A DNA stretch of 64,000 nt. It comes from Rubrivivax sp. GTDB taxonomy: Bacteria; Pseudomonadota; Gammaproteobacteria; Burkholderiales; Burkholderiaceae_C. Location of the stretch: contig JAIXYO010000036.1 in the NCBI GenBank assembly GCA_027490215.1, positions 1-64,000 of the forward strand, in the 5' to 3' direction. Of the stretch, positions 1 to 29,282 are shown piece after piece (within the stretch, counting starts at the first letter, position 1; the number at the start of each line of letters is the position of its first letter). A model generated the notes under the pieces. That model saw nothing but the letters and a program-made list of their open reading frames with translations, was not told where the DNA came from and made no database searches. The translations under genes and the position numbers were made by a program.

Positions 1-272
1 GGCGCTTCGGGTCAAGCCGATTCGGCCCTCCTCCTTTACTTCGCTGCGCCGGTCACCCGGCATCCCCCGCAGACAGCCACGGTTGTGTTCAACGGCCTTC
101 AACCGCAACAGTGGCTCCCATAGCGGTGTGGTGGGGTGCCGTGTGGAGTGAAGTAAAGGAGGAGGGCCGGATGGACTCGCGAGAAGCACTTGAGTCGACA
201 ACCGGCCCGGGGGACATGAACGCAACACGGCACCCCGCCGCACCGCTCTCGCGCAGATTGAGCACTGAAGAC
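1..272 (-). repeat. Palindromic repeat element, copy A (truncated by window start)
   Basis: This is the reverse-orientation copy of the element at 12915-13338; only its core and right terminus are inside the window. The terminal repeat is at 215-272, beginning CATGAACGCAACACGG and ending CACTGAAGAC, with a few differences from copy B. Two inverted arms built on GAAGTAAAGGAGGAGGG lie at about 25-45 and 150-170. The stretch containing GCCGGTCACCCGGCATCC at about 49-68 is the reverse complement of the matching part of copy B, so the copies are collinear only when one is flipped. Short ORFs can be read through it on both strands but show no codon logic or known domain. I regard it as a non-coding, non-autonomous repeat. 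The true left end lies outside the window. Confidence 0.75.
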
Positions 273-10524: not shown

Positions 10525-11514
10525 GTGAAGAAATTGATCAATCACGTCGACACCGTGCTGGCCGAATCGCTGGACGGTTTTGCCGCAGCCCATGCGGACA
10601 TCGTCACCCTGGGCGCCGAGCGTCAGTTCGTGCGCCGGCGCAGCCTGAAGCCAGGCAAGGTGGCGCTGATCTCCGGCGGCGGCTCTGGCCACGAGCCGCT
10701 GCACGCTGGATTTGTCGGCCACGGCATGCTCGACGCCGCGTGCCCGGGGCAGGTCTTCACCTCACCCACACCCGACCAGATGCTGGCTGCCGCCCAGTCG
10801 GTGGATGGGGGCGCGGGGGTGCTGTTCATCGTCAAGAACTACTCCGGCGACATGATGAACTTCCAGATGGCCGCCGAGATGCTGGATGTGGAGAACGCCA
10901 CCGTGCTGGTCAACGATGACGTGGCCGTCGAGAACTCGACCTACACCACCGGCCGCCGCGGCGTGGCCGGCACGCTGATCGTCGAGCGCATCGTCGGCGC
11001 CGCCGCCGAACGCGGCGACACGCTGGCGGAGCTGAAGGCGCTGGGCGATGCGGTCAACAAGGCCACCGCGTCGATGGGTGTCGCGCTCACCTCCTGCACC
11101 GTGCCGGCAGCCGGCAAGCCGACCTTCCAGCTCGGCGACGACGAGATGGAAGTGGGTGTCGGCATCCACGGCGAACCCGGGCGACGGCGCGTCAAGCTGA
11201 CCGATGCCGACGGGATCGCCACCGAACTGGTCGGCGCGATCCTGAAGGACCTGGCACTGAAGCCGGGGCAGCCAGTGATCCTGCTGGTCAATGGTTTCGG
11301 TGGCACGCCATCGCTGGAGCTCTACCTGATGGTGAATGCCGCGATGAAGTTGCTGGGCGCTGCCGGCGTCCAGGTGGTGCGCCATCTGACCGGCACTTAC
11401 GTCACCTCGCTCGAAATGGCCGGCTGCTCCATCACCGTCACCGCGGTCAATGACGAATGGCTGCAGCTGTGGGATTCACCGCTGCAGACTGCTGCACTGC
11501 GCTGGGGCATGTGA
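10525..11514 (+). CDS. dhaK: Dihydroxyacetone kinase, substrate-binding subunit DhaK
   Basis: A 329-residue protein that binds dihydroxyacetone covalently and presents it for phosphorylation to DHAP. The key residues are all visible: His56 in GGGSGHEPLH, Asp109 in KNYSGDMMNF and the hemiaminal-forming His215 in GIHGEPG. It starts at a GTG at 10525 with a clear AGGAG eight bases upstream. It lies 40 bp after dhaL and 14 bp before the NADH dehydrogenase gene, so the three genes are probably one operon. Without DhaM in the window the phosphate donor is unclear. The C-terminal DAK2 domain of ATP-dependent kinases is absent, so the enzyme should be of the split, EI/HPr-dependent type. Confidence 0.93.
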   Translation: MKKLINHVDTVLAESLDGFAAAHADIVTLGAERQFVRRRSLKPGKVALISGGGSGHEPLHAGFVGHGMLDAACPGQVFTSPTPDQMLAAAQSVDGGAGVLFIVKNYSGDMMNFQMAAEMLDVENATVLVNDDVAVENSTYTTGRRGVAGTLIVERIVGAAAERGDTLAELKALGDAVNKATASMGVALTSCTVPAAGKPTFQLGDDEMEVGVGIHGEPGRRRVKLTDADGIATELVGAILKDLALKPGQPVILLVNGFGGTPSLELYLMVNAAMKLLGAAGVQVVRHLTGTYVTSLEMAGCSITVTAVNDEWLQLWDSPLQTAALRWGM

Positions 11515-11528
11515 GGCGCCGCACCGTC

Positions 11529-12887
11529 ATGCCTTCGACGTCCAGCACCCTGCATCGCATCGTCATCGTCGGCGGAGGTGCGGGCGGCCTCGAACTCGCC
11601 ACGCAGCTCGGCGACACGCTGGGCAAACGCGGACGCGCCGAGGTGACGCTGATCGAGCGCAACCGCACCCATGTCTGGAAGCCCAAGCTGCATGAGATTG
11701 CGGCGGGCAGCATGGACATCAGCGACCATGAGGTTGGCTACCTTGCGCAGAGCCACTGGCACCACTTCAAATACCGCGTCGGCGAGATGATCGGGCTGGA
11801 CCGCGAACGCCGCGAGGTGCTGGTGGCGCCCTACCTCGACGAAGAAGGCGTTGAAGTCGTGCGGGCGCGGGCCGTGCCCTACGACACGCTGGTCATTGCG
11901 GTGGGCAGCCAGAGCAATGACTTCGGCACGCCCGGTGTGCGGGAGCATGCCTTGCGGCTGGAAACGGCGGCCGACGCGCAGCGCTTCCACCAGCGCATGG
12001 TCAATGCCTGCATCCGCGCACATGCGCAAAGCGATCCGCTGCGGCCCGAGCAACTGCACGTGGCCATCATCGGCGCTGGCGCCACAGGCGTCGAATTGGC
12101 GGCGGAGCTGCATCGCACGACGCGCGAGGTGGTGGCCTACGGGCTGGACCGCGTCGACCCGGACAAGGACATCCAGGTCGCCGTCGTCGAGGCCGCGCCG
12201 CGTGTGCTGCCGGCGCTGCCCGAGCGCCTGAGCCGGGCCACCGAGCAACTGCTCAAGGAGATCGGCGTGGCGGTGCATGTGAACGCCAAGGTGGCCAGCG
12301 TCAGCCCCGGCGCCGTGCACCTGGCCGATGGCCGCAGCCTGCCGGCCGAGCTGATCGTCTGGGCGGCCGGCGTCAAGGCGCCAGACTTCCTGAAGGGCAT
12401 CGGTGGGCTCGAGACCAACCGCATCAATCAACTCGTCGTCACCGGCACGCTGCAAACCACGCGAGACGAAGCGATCTTTGCCATGGGCGACTGCGCTGCC
12501 TGCGTCTGGAAGGATGTGGCGCCAGAGCGCGGAGCGCGCGAACATGATGGGGTGAAGATCGTGCCGCCGCGAGCGCAGGCGGCACACCAGCAGGCCAAGC
12601 ACCTGTTGCGGCAGATTCGGCGCCGCATCGACGGCCGGCCGCTGCAGGAATGGCAGTACCGCGACTTCGGCTCGCTGGTGTCGCTCGGCCAGTTCAGCAC
12701 CGTCGGGAACATGATGGGCGGCCTGGTCGGCGGCAACCTGATGATCGAGGGTTACTTCGCCAAGGTGATGTACCTGTCGCTGTACAAGATGCATGAGCTG
12801 GCCTTGCACGGCGGAGTGAAGGTCGCGCTCGACACGCTCGCACGGCTGATCATCCGACGCACCGAACCGTTGGTGAAGCTGCACTGA
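11529..12887 (+). CDS. ndh: Type II NADH:quinone oxidoreductase (NDH-2)
   Basis: A 452-residue single-subunit flavoprotein that passes electrons from NADH to membrane quinone without pumping protons. The FAD-binding Rossmann motif VIVGGGAGGLELA is near the N-terminus, a second dinucleotide motif (IIGAGATGVELAAEL) binds NADH, and the FAD-contacting AMGDCAA follows. The C-terminal region (GNMMGGLVGGNLMIEG... and an amphipathic tail) is the membrane-association part. The ATG at 11529 was chosen because the preceding open frame lies inside dhaK; GAGG about 11 bases upstream serves as ribosome binding site. Being the last gene of dhaL-dhaK-ndh, it could re-oxidise NADH formed from triose phosphates; that link is inferred. 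It is convergent with glgA, with the repeat element between. Confidence 0.9.
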   Translation: MPSTSSTLHRIVIVGGGAGGLELATQLGDTLGKRGRAEVTLIERNRTHVWKPKLHEIAAGSMDISDHEVGYLAQSHWHHFKYRVGEMIGLDRERREVLVAPYLDEEGVEVVRARAVPYDTLVIAVGSQSNDFGTPGVREHALRLETAADAQRFHQRMVNACIRAHAQSDPLRPEQLHVAIIGAGATGVELAAELHRTTREVVAYGLDRVDPDKDIQVAVVEAAPRVLPALPERLSRATEQLLKEIGVAVHVNAKVASVSPGAVHLADGRSLPAELIVWAAGVKAPDFLKGIGGLETNRINQLVVTGTLQTTRDEAIFAMGDCAACVWKDVAPERGAREHDGVKIVPPRAQAAHQQAKHLLRQIRRRIDGRPLQEWQYRDFGSLVSLGQFSTVGNMMGGLVGGNLMIEGYFAKVMYLSLYKMHELALHGGVKVALDTLARLIIRRTEPLVKLH

Positions 12888-12914
12888 AGTTGCGAAAGCT
12901 CCTGGAGTGGGTCT

Positions 12915-13338
12915 GTCTTCAGTGGTCGTTCTGCGAGAGAGCGGTGCGGCGCGGTGCCGTGTTGCGTTCATGTCCCCCGGGCCGGTTCACCAACCGTTCG
13001 CTTCGGCTCAACTCCCGCCGGCCCTCCTCCTTTACTTCACTCCACACGGCACCCCGCCACACCGCTCTAGGCGTCACCGTGGCGGTTGAAGGCCGTTGAC
13101 TGCAACTGTGGCTCCTTGCGGGGGATGCCGGGTGACCGGCGCAGCGAAGTAAAGGAGGAGGGCCGGATCGGCTTGACCAGAAGCCCCTGGGCAGTGAACC
13201 GGCCCGGGGGAGCAAGCCCGGACACAAACAGTCCAGTGGACTGTTTGTGCCTGGCGAGCGCCTGGGGCTCTGCCCCCAGGCATGAACGCAACACGGCACC
13301 GCGCCGCACCGCTCTCTCGCAGAACGACCACTGAAGAC
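12915..13338 (+). repeat. Palindromic repeat element, copy B (complete, MITE-like)
   Basis: A 424-bp element made of nested inverted repeats. Perfect 58-bp terminal inverted repeats span 12915-12972 and 13281-13338. Inside them are a 17-bp pair (12974-12990 with 13194-13210, built on CCCCCGGGCCGG), a 21-bp pair (13018-13038 with 13146-13166, containing CCTCCTCCTTTAC), a palindrome of 13-base arms around one base at 13223-13249, and a 7-bp hairpin at 13261-13280. No transposase-sized ORF is present and I see no clear target-site duplication. It sits exactly between the convergent ndh and glgA genes, where its hairpins could also act as a transcription barrier. It accounts for most of the 524-bp gene-free stretch 12888-13411. 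A truncated copy in opposite orientation opens the window. Confidence 0.85.
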
Positions 13339-13411
13339 CGTAGCCCGCGCAAGACCGCAATGGGTCTCGCTCGATAAGTACAGAGCAGAACACAACAGAG
13401 CGGCGCGCCGA

Positions 13412-14905
13412 CTAGGGCCTCTTGGTGAGCCGGACGGGCTTGGCCTCCAGCAGGCGGCGATACAGATCGGCATAGGCGACGGCCGCGCCATCCCAGGAAA
13501 AGTCCTGCACCATGGCCCTGCACACCACCTGCTTCCAGCGATCGGGTTGGCGGTACAGCGCCAGCGCACGACGGACAGCCTGCTCCAGCGCCTGCGTGGT
13601 GGGCGCGTTGAAGACGAAGCCGGTCGCGGTGTCGGCGGCCAGGGCCTTGTCATCGGCATCGACCACCGTGTCGGCCAGGCCGCCCACCCGATGCACCAGC
13701 GGCAGACTGCCGTAGCGCAGGCCATAGAGCTGTGTGAGGCCGCAGGGCTCGAAGCGCGAGGGCACGGCGATCACGTCGACGCCGGCGATGATCCGGTGGG
13801 CCAGCGTCTCGTCATACGCAAAGCTGACCTGGACCTGCCCCGGCGCCGCCGCGGCCAGAGCCCGGCACGCCGCCTCCAGTTCGGCATCACCGCTGCCCAG
13901 CAAGGCCAGCTGGACGTTTTCAACCAGCAGACGTGGCAGCACCTCCAGCAAAAGGTCGATGCCTTTCTGGGAAGTGAGCCGGCTCACCACGCCGATCAGC
14001 ATCGCGCCAGGATCGACACGCAGACCGAGCTGGCGTTGCAGCGCGCCCTTGGCGGCCGCCTTCATTTCCGGATGCGCAGCGTCGAAGTGCGCTTCAAGAC
14101 GCGGGTCGGTGGTGGAGTTCCACACCGTGTAATCGACGCCGTTGAGGATGCCGTGCAACTGAGCGCGTCGCTGAGTGATGACGCCCTCGAGCCCACAGCC
14201 GAAAGCAGTCGTCTGAATCTCGCGCGCGTAGCTGGGGCTGACGGTGGTGATCGCATCGGCGTAATGCAGCCCCGCCTTGATCATGGAGCCCTCACCATGG
14301 AACTCGAGTCCATCGCTCGAGAAACTCGATTCCGGCAGTTGCAGCACCGGCAGCAGCGTCTGCGGAAACAGCCCATGAAACGCCAGGTTGTGCACCGTGA
14401 ACACGGTGCGGCAATCGGTGTGCGGATGCAGCGCCAGGTAAGCCGCCGCCAGACCGGCATGCCAGTCATGGCCATGCACCAGTTGCGGCCGCCAGGCGGG
14501 GTCGATGTCGCCCAACGCGAGGTAGGCCGCCACCCACCCCAGCAGCCCGAAGCGCTGCGGGTTGTCGTTCCATCCCTCGCCGCTGCCATCGACATACGGA
14601 TTGCCGGGCCGGTCGTAGAGGGAAGGCGCATCGATCAGGTACACCGGCACGTCAATGCCGGGCAAGCGGCCCAGCAGCACCTGCACGCTGGCCGCACCGA
14701 AGGCCGGCCCGAGGCGACACACCAGGCTAACGTTCGTCAAGGGCTTGCGCAGGGCCGGGTAGCCGGGCAGCAGCAGGCGCACCGCCAGCCCGAGCCGCTC
14801 CAGAGCAGACGGCAATGCGCCCATCACATCACCCAGCCCACCGGTCTTGACCAGTGGGTAGATCTCGGCGCCGACCTGCAGGATGCGGGTAGAGGACTTG
14901 CTCAC
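13412..14905 (-). CDS. glgA: Glycogen synthase GlgA
   Basis: A 497-residue GT5 family retaining glycosyltransferase that extends alpha-1,4-glucan from ADP-glucose. The N-terminal ADP-glucose motif KTGGLGD is at 20-26, HDWHAGLAAAY and TVHNLAFHG mark the N-terminal Rossmann domain, ILNGVDYTVWN the linker, and SRFEPCGLTQLYGLRYG the C-terminal catalytic domain. Start is the GTG at 14905, which shares one base with the TAG stop of glgC (TAGTG), so translation is probably coupled. It is the last gene of the glycogen cluster and is separated from convergent ndh by the repeat element. Length is typical. Confidence 0.96.
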   Translation of the reverse strand: MSKSSTRILQVGAEIYPLVKTGGLGDVMGALPSALERLGLAVRLLLPGYPALRKPLTNVSLVCRLGPAFGAASVQVLLGRLPGIDVPVYLIDAPSLYDRPGNPYVDGSGEGWNDNPQRFGLLGWVAAYLALGDIDPAWRPQLVHGHDWHAGLAAAYLALHPHTDCRTVFTVHNLAFHGLFPQTLLPVLQLPESSFSSDGLEFHGEGSMIKAGLHYADAITTVSPSYAREIQTTAFGCGLEGVITQRRAQLHGILNGVDYTVWNSTTDPRLEAHFDAAHPEMKAAAKGALQRQLGLRVDPGAMLIGVVSRLTSQKGIDLLLEVLPRLLVENVQLALLGSGDAELEAACRALAAAAPGQVQVSFAYDETLAHRIIAGVDVIAVPSRFEPCGLTQLYGLRYGSLPLVHRVGGLADTVVDADDKALAADTATGFVFNAPTTQALEQAVRRALALYRQPDRWKQVVCRAMVQDFSWDGAAVAYADLYRRLLEAKPVRLTKRP

Positions 14906-28921: not shown

Positions 28922-28998
28922 TGGCGGAGTGGACGGGACTCGAACCCGCGACCCCCGGCGTGACAGGCCGGTATTCTAACCAACTGAACTACCACTCC
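28922..28998 (-). tRNA. tRNA-Asp (GTC)
   Basis: A 77-base cloverleaf on the minus strand, starting GGAGTGGTAGTTCAG and ending with an encoded CCA. The anticodon loop reads CTGTCAC, anticodon GTC. The T-loop GGTTCGAGTCC is canonical. It is the last of three tRNAs downstream of gltX and directly precedes the terminator. Confidence 0.96.
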
Positions 28999-29069
28999 AA
29001 TACGCACACTGTGCGAAGCGAAATACCAGCATTCTCTTTTCAGATACTGCTGCAAGCTTCGCTCAAGCT

Positions 29070-29145
29070 TGGCGTCCCCTAGGGGATTCGAACCCCTGTA
29101 ATCACCGTGAAAGGGTGGTGTCCTAGGCCTCTAGACGAAGGGGAC
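29070..29145 (-). tRNA. tRNA-Glu (TTC)
   Basis: A 76-base cloverleaf on the minus strand, starting GTCCCCTTCGTCTAGAGG, which is typical of tRNA-Glu. The anticodon is TTC in CCTTTCACG, and CCA is encoded. It is the cognate substrate of the glutamyl-tRNA synthetase encoded just upstream on the same strand. Confidence 0.96.
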
Positions 29146-29206
29146 AAATCCTGCGTCGTGACTTGAACTGCGCGCCGCCTTCAACCTGCGATGAACTGCC
29201 TGTCGT

Positions 29207-29282
<76 letters not shown>

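Follow-up and report, generated by a model that had tools for sequence, protein, structure and literature searches.

What kind of repeat lies between two convergent open reading frames (ORFs) of a Rubrivivax sp. contig, and how could it have spread? The repeat is a 424-bp element (12915–13338) in a stretch of 64,000 nt, which we refer to as the window herein. A first-pass annotation had described a dispersed repeat that shows nested symmetry, lacks a transposase ORF and has no known mover, and this description is supported by our analysis. The perfect 58-bp inverted ends (12915–12972/13281–13338) were verified, and the 21-bp inverted pair (13018–13038/13146–13166), the 17-bp inverted pair (12973–12989/13195–13211), the palindrome with 13-base arms (13223–13235/13237–13249) and the short hairpin (13260–13267/13274–13281) that it had listed all exist. 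Across 300 first-order Markov shuffles of 12888–13411, the longest inverted repeat was 22 (mean 10).

The window copy and the conserved unit

The features of the window that bear on the element are the following:

12888–13411, no strand: intergenic stretch holding the element, between the convergent ORFs 11457–12887 (plus) and 13412–14905 (minus)
12915–12972, plus strand: left outer arm, 58 bp, with its perfect inverted copy at 13281–13338
12938–13065, minus strand: left hairpin, which reads on the minus strand as long stem, conserved core, inner stem P2 and stem
13018–13035, minus strand: conserved core of the left hairpin, an exact match to the core GTAAAGGAGGAGGGCCGG
13066–13117, no strand: spacer between the divergent hairpins, its right limit approximate; three relatives have passenger ORFs here
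13132–13225, plus strand: right hairpin, 5′ arm and core, with a broken outer stem
13149–13166, plus strand: conserved core of the right hairpin, an exact core match
13212–13280, plus strand: optional arm of two small hairpins, sitting exactly between GGGGGA and CATGA
13281–13338, plus strand: right outer arm, an inverted copy of a left-type arm in place of the CATGAGCGGAGCCGGTCACCC arm of genomes G004 and G009
1–272, minus strand: second copy, cut by the contig start, with its left-type hairpin at 123–249 (plus)

The left hairpin matched covariance model R1 with an E-value of 6.7e-15 and is predicted to fold as single-stranded DNA (ssDNA) at −38.3 kcal/mol (z = −5.35). The right hairpin gave only a partial R1 match (model positions 14–87, E = 0.002), since its 3′ arm was replaced. 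Orthologues of the locus in G004 and G009 contain the element with the usual CATGAGCGGAGCCGGTCACCC right arm, while G006 holds a remnant with left and right arms fused, and spacers lacking the element measure 56 bp in G013, 34 bp in G014 and 16 bp in G003. As the G004 and G009 orthologues carry a different right arm, the comparison identifies the window copy as a recombinant whose right arm was swapped for an inverted left-type arm. This replacement in the source genome accounts for both the perfect 58-bp repeat and the broken right hairpin. The 58-bp termini, previously taken as the defining ends, are thus a feature of this copy rather than of the family, and a terminal-inverted-repeat MITE built on the 58-bp arms is ruled out by the orthologues without that right arm. 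Nor does the unit end at 12915 and 13338, as its similarity to the second copy of the window continues outward on the right (80-bp direct repeat 215–294/13281–13360, 86%). At the window locus the optional arm is present in G009 and absent in G004, and it recurs in copies L002, L006, L008, L016 and L018. In copy L195 (1401–1575) a different insert follows CCCGGAGG at the same position in the hairpin, so this spot tolerates or attracts inserts.

The second copy that had been reported at 1–272 matched positions 1–273 of the 424-bp query on the minus strand (86%). Base 1 of the window is base 1 of contig C34, and the copy therefore ends at the contig start. The 272-bp end of contig C67 is identical to it at 264 of 272 positions; two separate copies, both interrupted by a contig end, are the probable explanation. 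The first-pass annotation had allowed that there might be only these two copies; this idea fails, because the source genome has 26 core-bearing places. A BLAST search of that genome with the 424-bp query returned 76 matching pieces, and a search with the 18-mer core, permitting up to three mismatches, returned 46 matches (25 forward, 21 reverse) versus one for the reversed-pattern control. With one three-mismatch match on contig C9 left out, the remaining 45 form the 26 places, 19 of them pairs and seven single cores. The element breaks assemblies, as seven of the 26 places lie at contig ends by our own count.

When the source-genome copies were aligned by eye, each showed two hairpins in inverted order, about 60 bp apart, with the same core and different stems. 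The conserved unit is therefore a pair of divergent hairpins, each of about 100 nt, that share the core. Start-to-start distances between neighbouring divergent cores fell within 120–139 bp in 172 of 193 cases. Because many of the loci overlap, the number of different elements is below 193; a further 71 cores were unpaired. In L161, L213 and L260 the hairpins are on the same strand or triple instead of forming the usual divergent pair. The longer copies L003, L004, L005, L007, L011 and L013 have common outer arms similar to CGGCCMTTTGCRGTCTTTCGC; where a copy contains both ends, the arm at the far end is inverted. These arms are perhaps another repeat nested with the element.

Folding, covariation and strand of the hairpins

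RNAalifold analysis of 59 aligned hairpins (alignment A2) yielded 30 consensus pairs, 29 of them with changes on both sides. Paired cells amounted to 94.0% versus 66.9% in shuffled alignments and 33.7–40.9% in slid controls, cells with two-sided change numbered 463 versus 117.8 in shuffles, and none of 500 shuffles reached any observed pairing measure, the structure having been derived from the same 59-hairpin alignment. On the core-bearing strand of 190 unique hairpins, G.T mispairs numbered 376 versus 82 for A.C, in a count that scored all mispairs alike and in which G.A (183) and A.G (156) were also common. The hairpins share a purine-rich asymmetric internal loop, AAGTAAAGGRGGAG/CGGRGGACAT. 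Across 237 hairpins, the core dinucleotides were tightly coupled: GA was found with GG in 159 of 168 cases, GG with AG in 45 of 46 and AA with GT or AT in 17 of 17, with six rarer cases, and not all of the coupled dinucleotides are Watson-Crick pairs. As the copies are related, the counts given for these hairpins are not independent. The near-lockstep covariation of the core, in a repeat for which the tested loci gave no Rfam match, suggests a nucleic-acid-binding enzyme or other protein that has yet to be recognised.

The loops of P2 bear on whether the folded form is DNA or RNA. From 259 hairpins we left out 107 with long loops, 10 that were unresolved and 46 with a P2 already counted; the 96 distinct short loops included 36 C-GNA-G triloops, one GNRA and 54 others, and no TTCG. 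GNA triloops form exceptionally stable DNA mini-hairpins (PMC4686876). This preference leans towards a DNA form, and GNA loops are also possible in RNA.

A structured RNA would be expected to show the strong covariation and the strand-specific wobbles, and outside the source genus many copies lie just 5′ of start codons in operons. The hairpins might accordingly be transcribed, either as a divergent pair of non-coding RNAs or as parts of mRNAs with a role in protein binding, decay or translation. We consider this unlikely for several reasons. No Rfam family matched at its gathering score over the hairpins of the window and eight carrier loci, and the prospect that the element is a non-coding RNA family, raised when it was first annotated, fails on this result. 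Neither a sigma-70-like promoter nor an intrinsic terminator was found in the window copy, and the inverted pairing of the hairpins at near-fixed spacing means that no single transcript holds both in their folding orientation. C-GNA-G loops are common and TTCG is absent. Finally, the recurrent neighbours read as unrelated housekeeping genes, and the corresponding sites of relatives are empty.

Weak Rfam matches (E = 0.039–9), none reaching its gathering score, were rejected; they involved one Burkholderia sRNA and otherwise families from eukaryotes or viruses. Two Rfam matches in the carrier loci fall outside the hairpins; both are 5_ureB_sRNA (RF02514, about 125 bits) at urease loci, in L137 (4020–4304) and L141 (6999–7287). 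By our reading of the frames, the element in these two loci lies just before ureC, and copy L010 of the source genome lies just after the end of ureC; these are probably separate insertions in one operon.

Distribution, insertion sites and translation

A typical copy, L009, had matches in 14 of 60 genomes, the source genome included: 11 of the 15 from the source genus, two elsewhere in the family and one elsewhere in the order. Scanning GTDB genomes for the core returned at least 103 stretches. The matches listed include Rubrivivax, Rhizobacter, Hydrogenophaga, Albitalea, Sulfuritalea, Sulfurisoma, Nitricoxidireducens and Desulfobacillus, along with MAGs titled Burkholderiales, Rhodocyclaceae or Rhodocyclales and one titled Gammaproteobacteria; NCBI assigns Sulfuritalea and Nitricoxidireducens to Sterolibacteriaceae and has Desulfobacillus unplaced within Betaproteobacteria. 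Model R1 was found with an E-value of 1e-6 or better in 11 of 398 genomes drawn from the phylum, a survey in which strict filters and the scoring of ten candidates per genome make misses likely. Seven of the 11 belong to the source family (source genome included) and four to one family in another order of the same class. One of these four, G358, carries the REP GTAGAGCCGAGCCCATGCTCGGCT, which is listed for Stenotrophomonas maltophilia (PMC2817692), so this family is probably Xanthomonadaceae. The copies from this probable Xanthomonadaceae group keep the core and have wholly different stems. BLAST searches of plasmids and phages gave no match at 1e-5, and ten viral contigs that matched the core pattern were set aside after a crude stem test detected no stem. 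The element is a structured repeat that is spread over several bacterial families and sits between genes.

Filled and empty sites were compared at orthologous loci. Locus L007 is filled in the source genome, G004 and G003, contains a shorter copy in G013 and a remnant in G006, and is empty, reading GACATCTCAGG, in G009, G014 and G008. The 8-bp direct repeat CATCTCAG flanks the element on both sides in the source genome and G006 and is single in the three empty relatives; the repeat has one mismatch in G004 and two or more in G003 and G013, and in these three genomes the orientation of the element is reversed. Locus L018 is filled in the source genome, G009 and G013, with a remnant in G006 and a spacer of about 20 bp in G003, and G004 and G014 gave no complete site. 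G008 has another insert at this locus without a match to the element; it spans about 700 bp (contig C43, 13413–14132) and by eye reads like a vapBC-type toxin-antitoxin pair. The patterns at the window and L007 loci conflict with one simple tree (G009, G003, G013) and require loss or transfer; loss is real, two G006 sites being internal-deletion remnants. From these comparisons we infer that the empty sites were never filled and that the element is mobile. Fixed positions without mobility, a possibility left standing by the first annotation, are contradicted by the empty orthologous sites of several relatives.

The Desulfobacillus locus L206 and its counterpart in G460 are 93% identical. The filled L206 site reads GGATG/AAATCC ... 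GGAGCAACTGAT/ATGAGC and the empty G460 site CGACATGAGC. The filled site thus has a second ATG or ATGA, and a ribosome-binding site comes with the right end of the element. At two sites, our reading of the frames is that insertion took place at a start codon, with the ATG duplicated. Of 102 elements, 38 had TGANATG in one or both of their 142-bp flanks, 11 of them in both, versus 3.5% of random windows. The motif was also present at 20 of the 81 gene starts that follow a hairpin by no more than 260 bp, versus 12 of 507 others (Fisher p = 4e-11), a comparison that includes related copies and depends on crude gene calling. Flanking direct repeats of at least 8 were present in 23.8% of 105 elements versus 15.1% of shuffled pairings, a weak enrichment for target-site duplication as a general trait of the family.

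The element could instead be a classical MITE whose mover is a DDE transposase acting on terminal inverted repeats in double-stranded DNA. This would explain why CATCTCAG flanks the L007 insertion in the source genome and G006 yet is single in three empty relatives, and it would fit the inverted-repeat-like outer arms of some source-genome copies. However, the outer ends vary between lineages and it is the inner cores that are nearly invariant, duplex termini do not predict the asymmetry of G.T over A.C, and L206/G460 doubles only ATG or ATGA. These observations make a classical MITE decidedly unlikely.

Among 110 unique elements, 49 lay between convergent, 53 between tandem and eight between divergent gene pairs, by crude gene calling. 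In the source genus, 33 of 49 were convergent and none divergent, versus 10 and nine of the 46 gene pairs in the window; outside the genus, 16 of 61 elements were convergent and eight divergent, against a background of 112 and 108 in 552 pairs (p = 0.32 and 0.30). A preference for convergent sites is thus limited to the source genus and was dropped as a family trait. Elsewhere in the window, three consecutive tRNA genes lie on the minus strand (28925–29282).

Operonic copies were examined for open frames after three of 19 rows had been set aside (L132 and L173, read on the wrong strand, and L261, which has other ends). Of the 16 retained copies, whose ends were recognisable and which are all from outside the genus, 14 have a frame that starts at the left ATG or GTG and stays open until a stop at the next start. 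One MAG supplied six of the 16, and open stretches in other frames are common. The stop abuts the next start in 10 of the 14 copies and, by our reading, overlaps it in four. Tandem copies outside the genus had at least one open frame in 32 of 37 cases in the sense direction versus 23 of 37 in antisense, and those within the genus in 11 of 16 versus nine of 16. This is suggestive of an element that stays open for translation. We rejected the reading of the element as a protein gene: copies with two open frames are frequent, and the excess in the sense direction is modest.

Candidate movers and comparison with known systems

Since REPINs are believed to depend on RAYT transposases, a Y1/RAYT transposase (PF01797) is a candidate mover. 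The source genome had no PF01797 match, and a RAYT was rejected as the mover there. In all, 10 of the 25 genomes searched had a match over the cut-off, among them none of the 14 from the source genus, in which G014 and G001 had matches below it. The element could still be a true REPIN or BIME whose RAYT has been lost or has diverged beyond recognition by PF01797: as in REPINs (PMC3116915), its hairpins are paired in inverted order, lie between genes and occur in many copies, and PF01797 exceeds the cut-off in 10 of the 11 extra-genus carriers, a proportion without a non-carrier baseline as all extra-genus genomes among the 25 are hairpin carriers. We judge this very improbable, since the element has no GTAG/GTGG head, its hairpins are far longer than REPs, and none of 21 Y1 loci, taken with about 1.5 kb of flank, had a family hairpin beside the transposase. 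The sole model match at these loci, in L316, was a Stenotrophomonas GTAGAGCCGAG REP. At L316 (1500–2080), the Y1 transposase match has a REP doublet of the Stenotrophomonas type next to it; this is an ordinary RAYT-REP pair, and its genome carries the family as well.

No copy of the element with a transposase was seen. The distance list gave four wide core pairs, of which L103 and L162 are the same place in G014, and L166 and L242 have little or no stem signal; the covariance model added two more, L253 and L187. ORFs between the hairpins encode 415 aa in L103, 394 aa in L253 and up to 184 aa in L187, none with a Pfam, NCBIfam or PADLOC family above cut-off, and these wide pairs were therefore rejected as autonomous copies with a transposase. 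The L253 ORF has a weak TPR_2 match (E = 0.0016). By eye, the L103 ORF contains an HERFH motif and the L187 ORF a HEPN-like RxxxxxH. A shared neighbour gene was also rejected as the mover, as protein clusters present in at least three loci read, from previews, as unrelated housekeeping genes.

Comparison across copies and genomes shows that the family is dispersed, that its hairpins covary, fold in a strand-specific manner and are spaced at near-fixed distances, and that orthologous sites may be filled or empty; ATG is doubled at two sites that we read as start codons. On this basis we lean, with slightly better than even confidence, towards the window copy being a recombined member of a non-autonomous, REPIN-like family of ssDNA hairpins moved by an enzyme acting in trans. 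The hairpins would probably act as folded single-stranded DNA, rather than as RNA, and be recognised by a trans-acting enzyme that the element does not encode, by analogy with the presumed dependence of REPINs on RAYT transposases; movement would be of a copy type. In some betaproteobacterial operons the right end supplies GGAGCAACTGAN before the downstream ATG, and the element is often open for translation, which may permit insertion without silencing of the next gene.

A more specific proposal, which we hold only tentatively and think rather improbable, is a distinct class of ssDNA hairpins that inserts at start codons and duplicates the ATG. Such elements would bring a ribosome-binding site and a translated frame whose stop overlaps or abuts the next start, live in operons without shutting them off, be able to carry passengers in the spacer, and be moved by an enzyme that reads the non-Watson-Crick core. 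If the element does enter at start codons with both neighbours expressed, this would be a strategy for living inside operons, and it is directly testable.

Searches of the open-licence literature with core strings and topics returned no description of the element family, and PMC3733652 contained no match to betaproteobacterial terms. Of the original label, MITE-like or REP/BIME-like, the second part holds for the paired inverted hairpins; it does not hold for the head or the transposase, as the 59 aligned hairpins have no GTAG head and no RAYT was found next to a hairpin.

REPINs are described as two inverted hairpin sequences around a less conserved spacer, extragenic, present in many copies and thought to be moved in trans (PMC3116915). 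The element resembles them in its inverted hairpin pair and near-fixed spacing (120–139 bp in 172 of 193), but its hairpins are about 100 nt rather than 20–40, it has a nearly invariant internal loop and no GTAG/GTGG head in the 59 aligned hairpins, no RAYT was detected in the source genome, and insertion in some lineages appears to be at start codons. As the RAYT and GTAG tests failed, we have not filed it as a REPIN. Like BIMEs and REPs, it consists of alternating inverted palindromes between genes; unlike them, it occurs mostly as doublets, with unrelated sequence and long covarying stems. Rickettsia palindromic elements and other small MITEs also have palindromic units, about 150 bp in length, which can remain translatable (PMC10969869). 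The element shares with the Rickettsia elements a palindromic, translatable unit, and differs in being intergenic, with an end that supplies a ribosome-binding site. With MITEs it has in common that it is short, dispersed, polymorphic between relatives and without a transposase gene, but it lacks conserved terminal inverted repeats, its outer ends varying by lineage, and in the target-site duplication test one locus had the 8-bp CATCTCAG and another ATG or ATGA, with a weak overall excess.

In mobile insertion cassettes, the ends flank passenger genes without a transposase; here the ends are hairpins instead of IS termini, and passengers occur in three copies only. Integron cassettes use attC sites in direct orientation and the IntI integrase, whereas the hairpins here are inverted. 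The Burkholderiales-1 motif is listed from Burkholderiales with an uncertain RNA nature and no Rfam accession (PMC2864571), and going by its table row it could be a piece of the same family. The element is apparently an uncatalogued family, a variant of non-autonomous palindromic elements.
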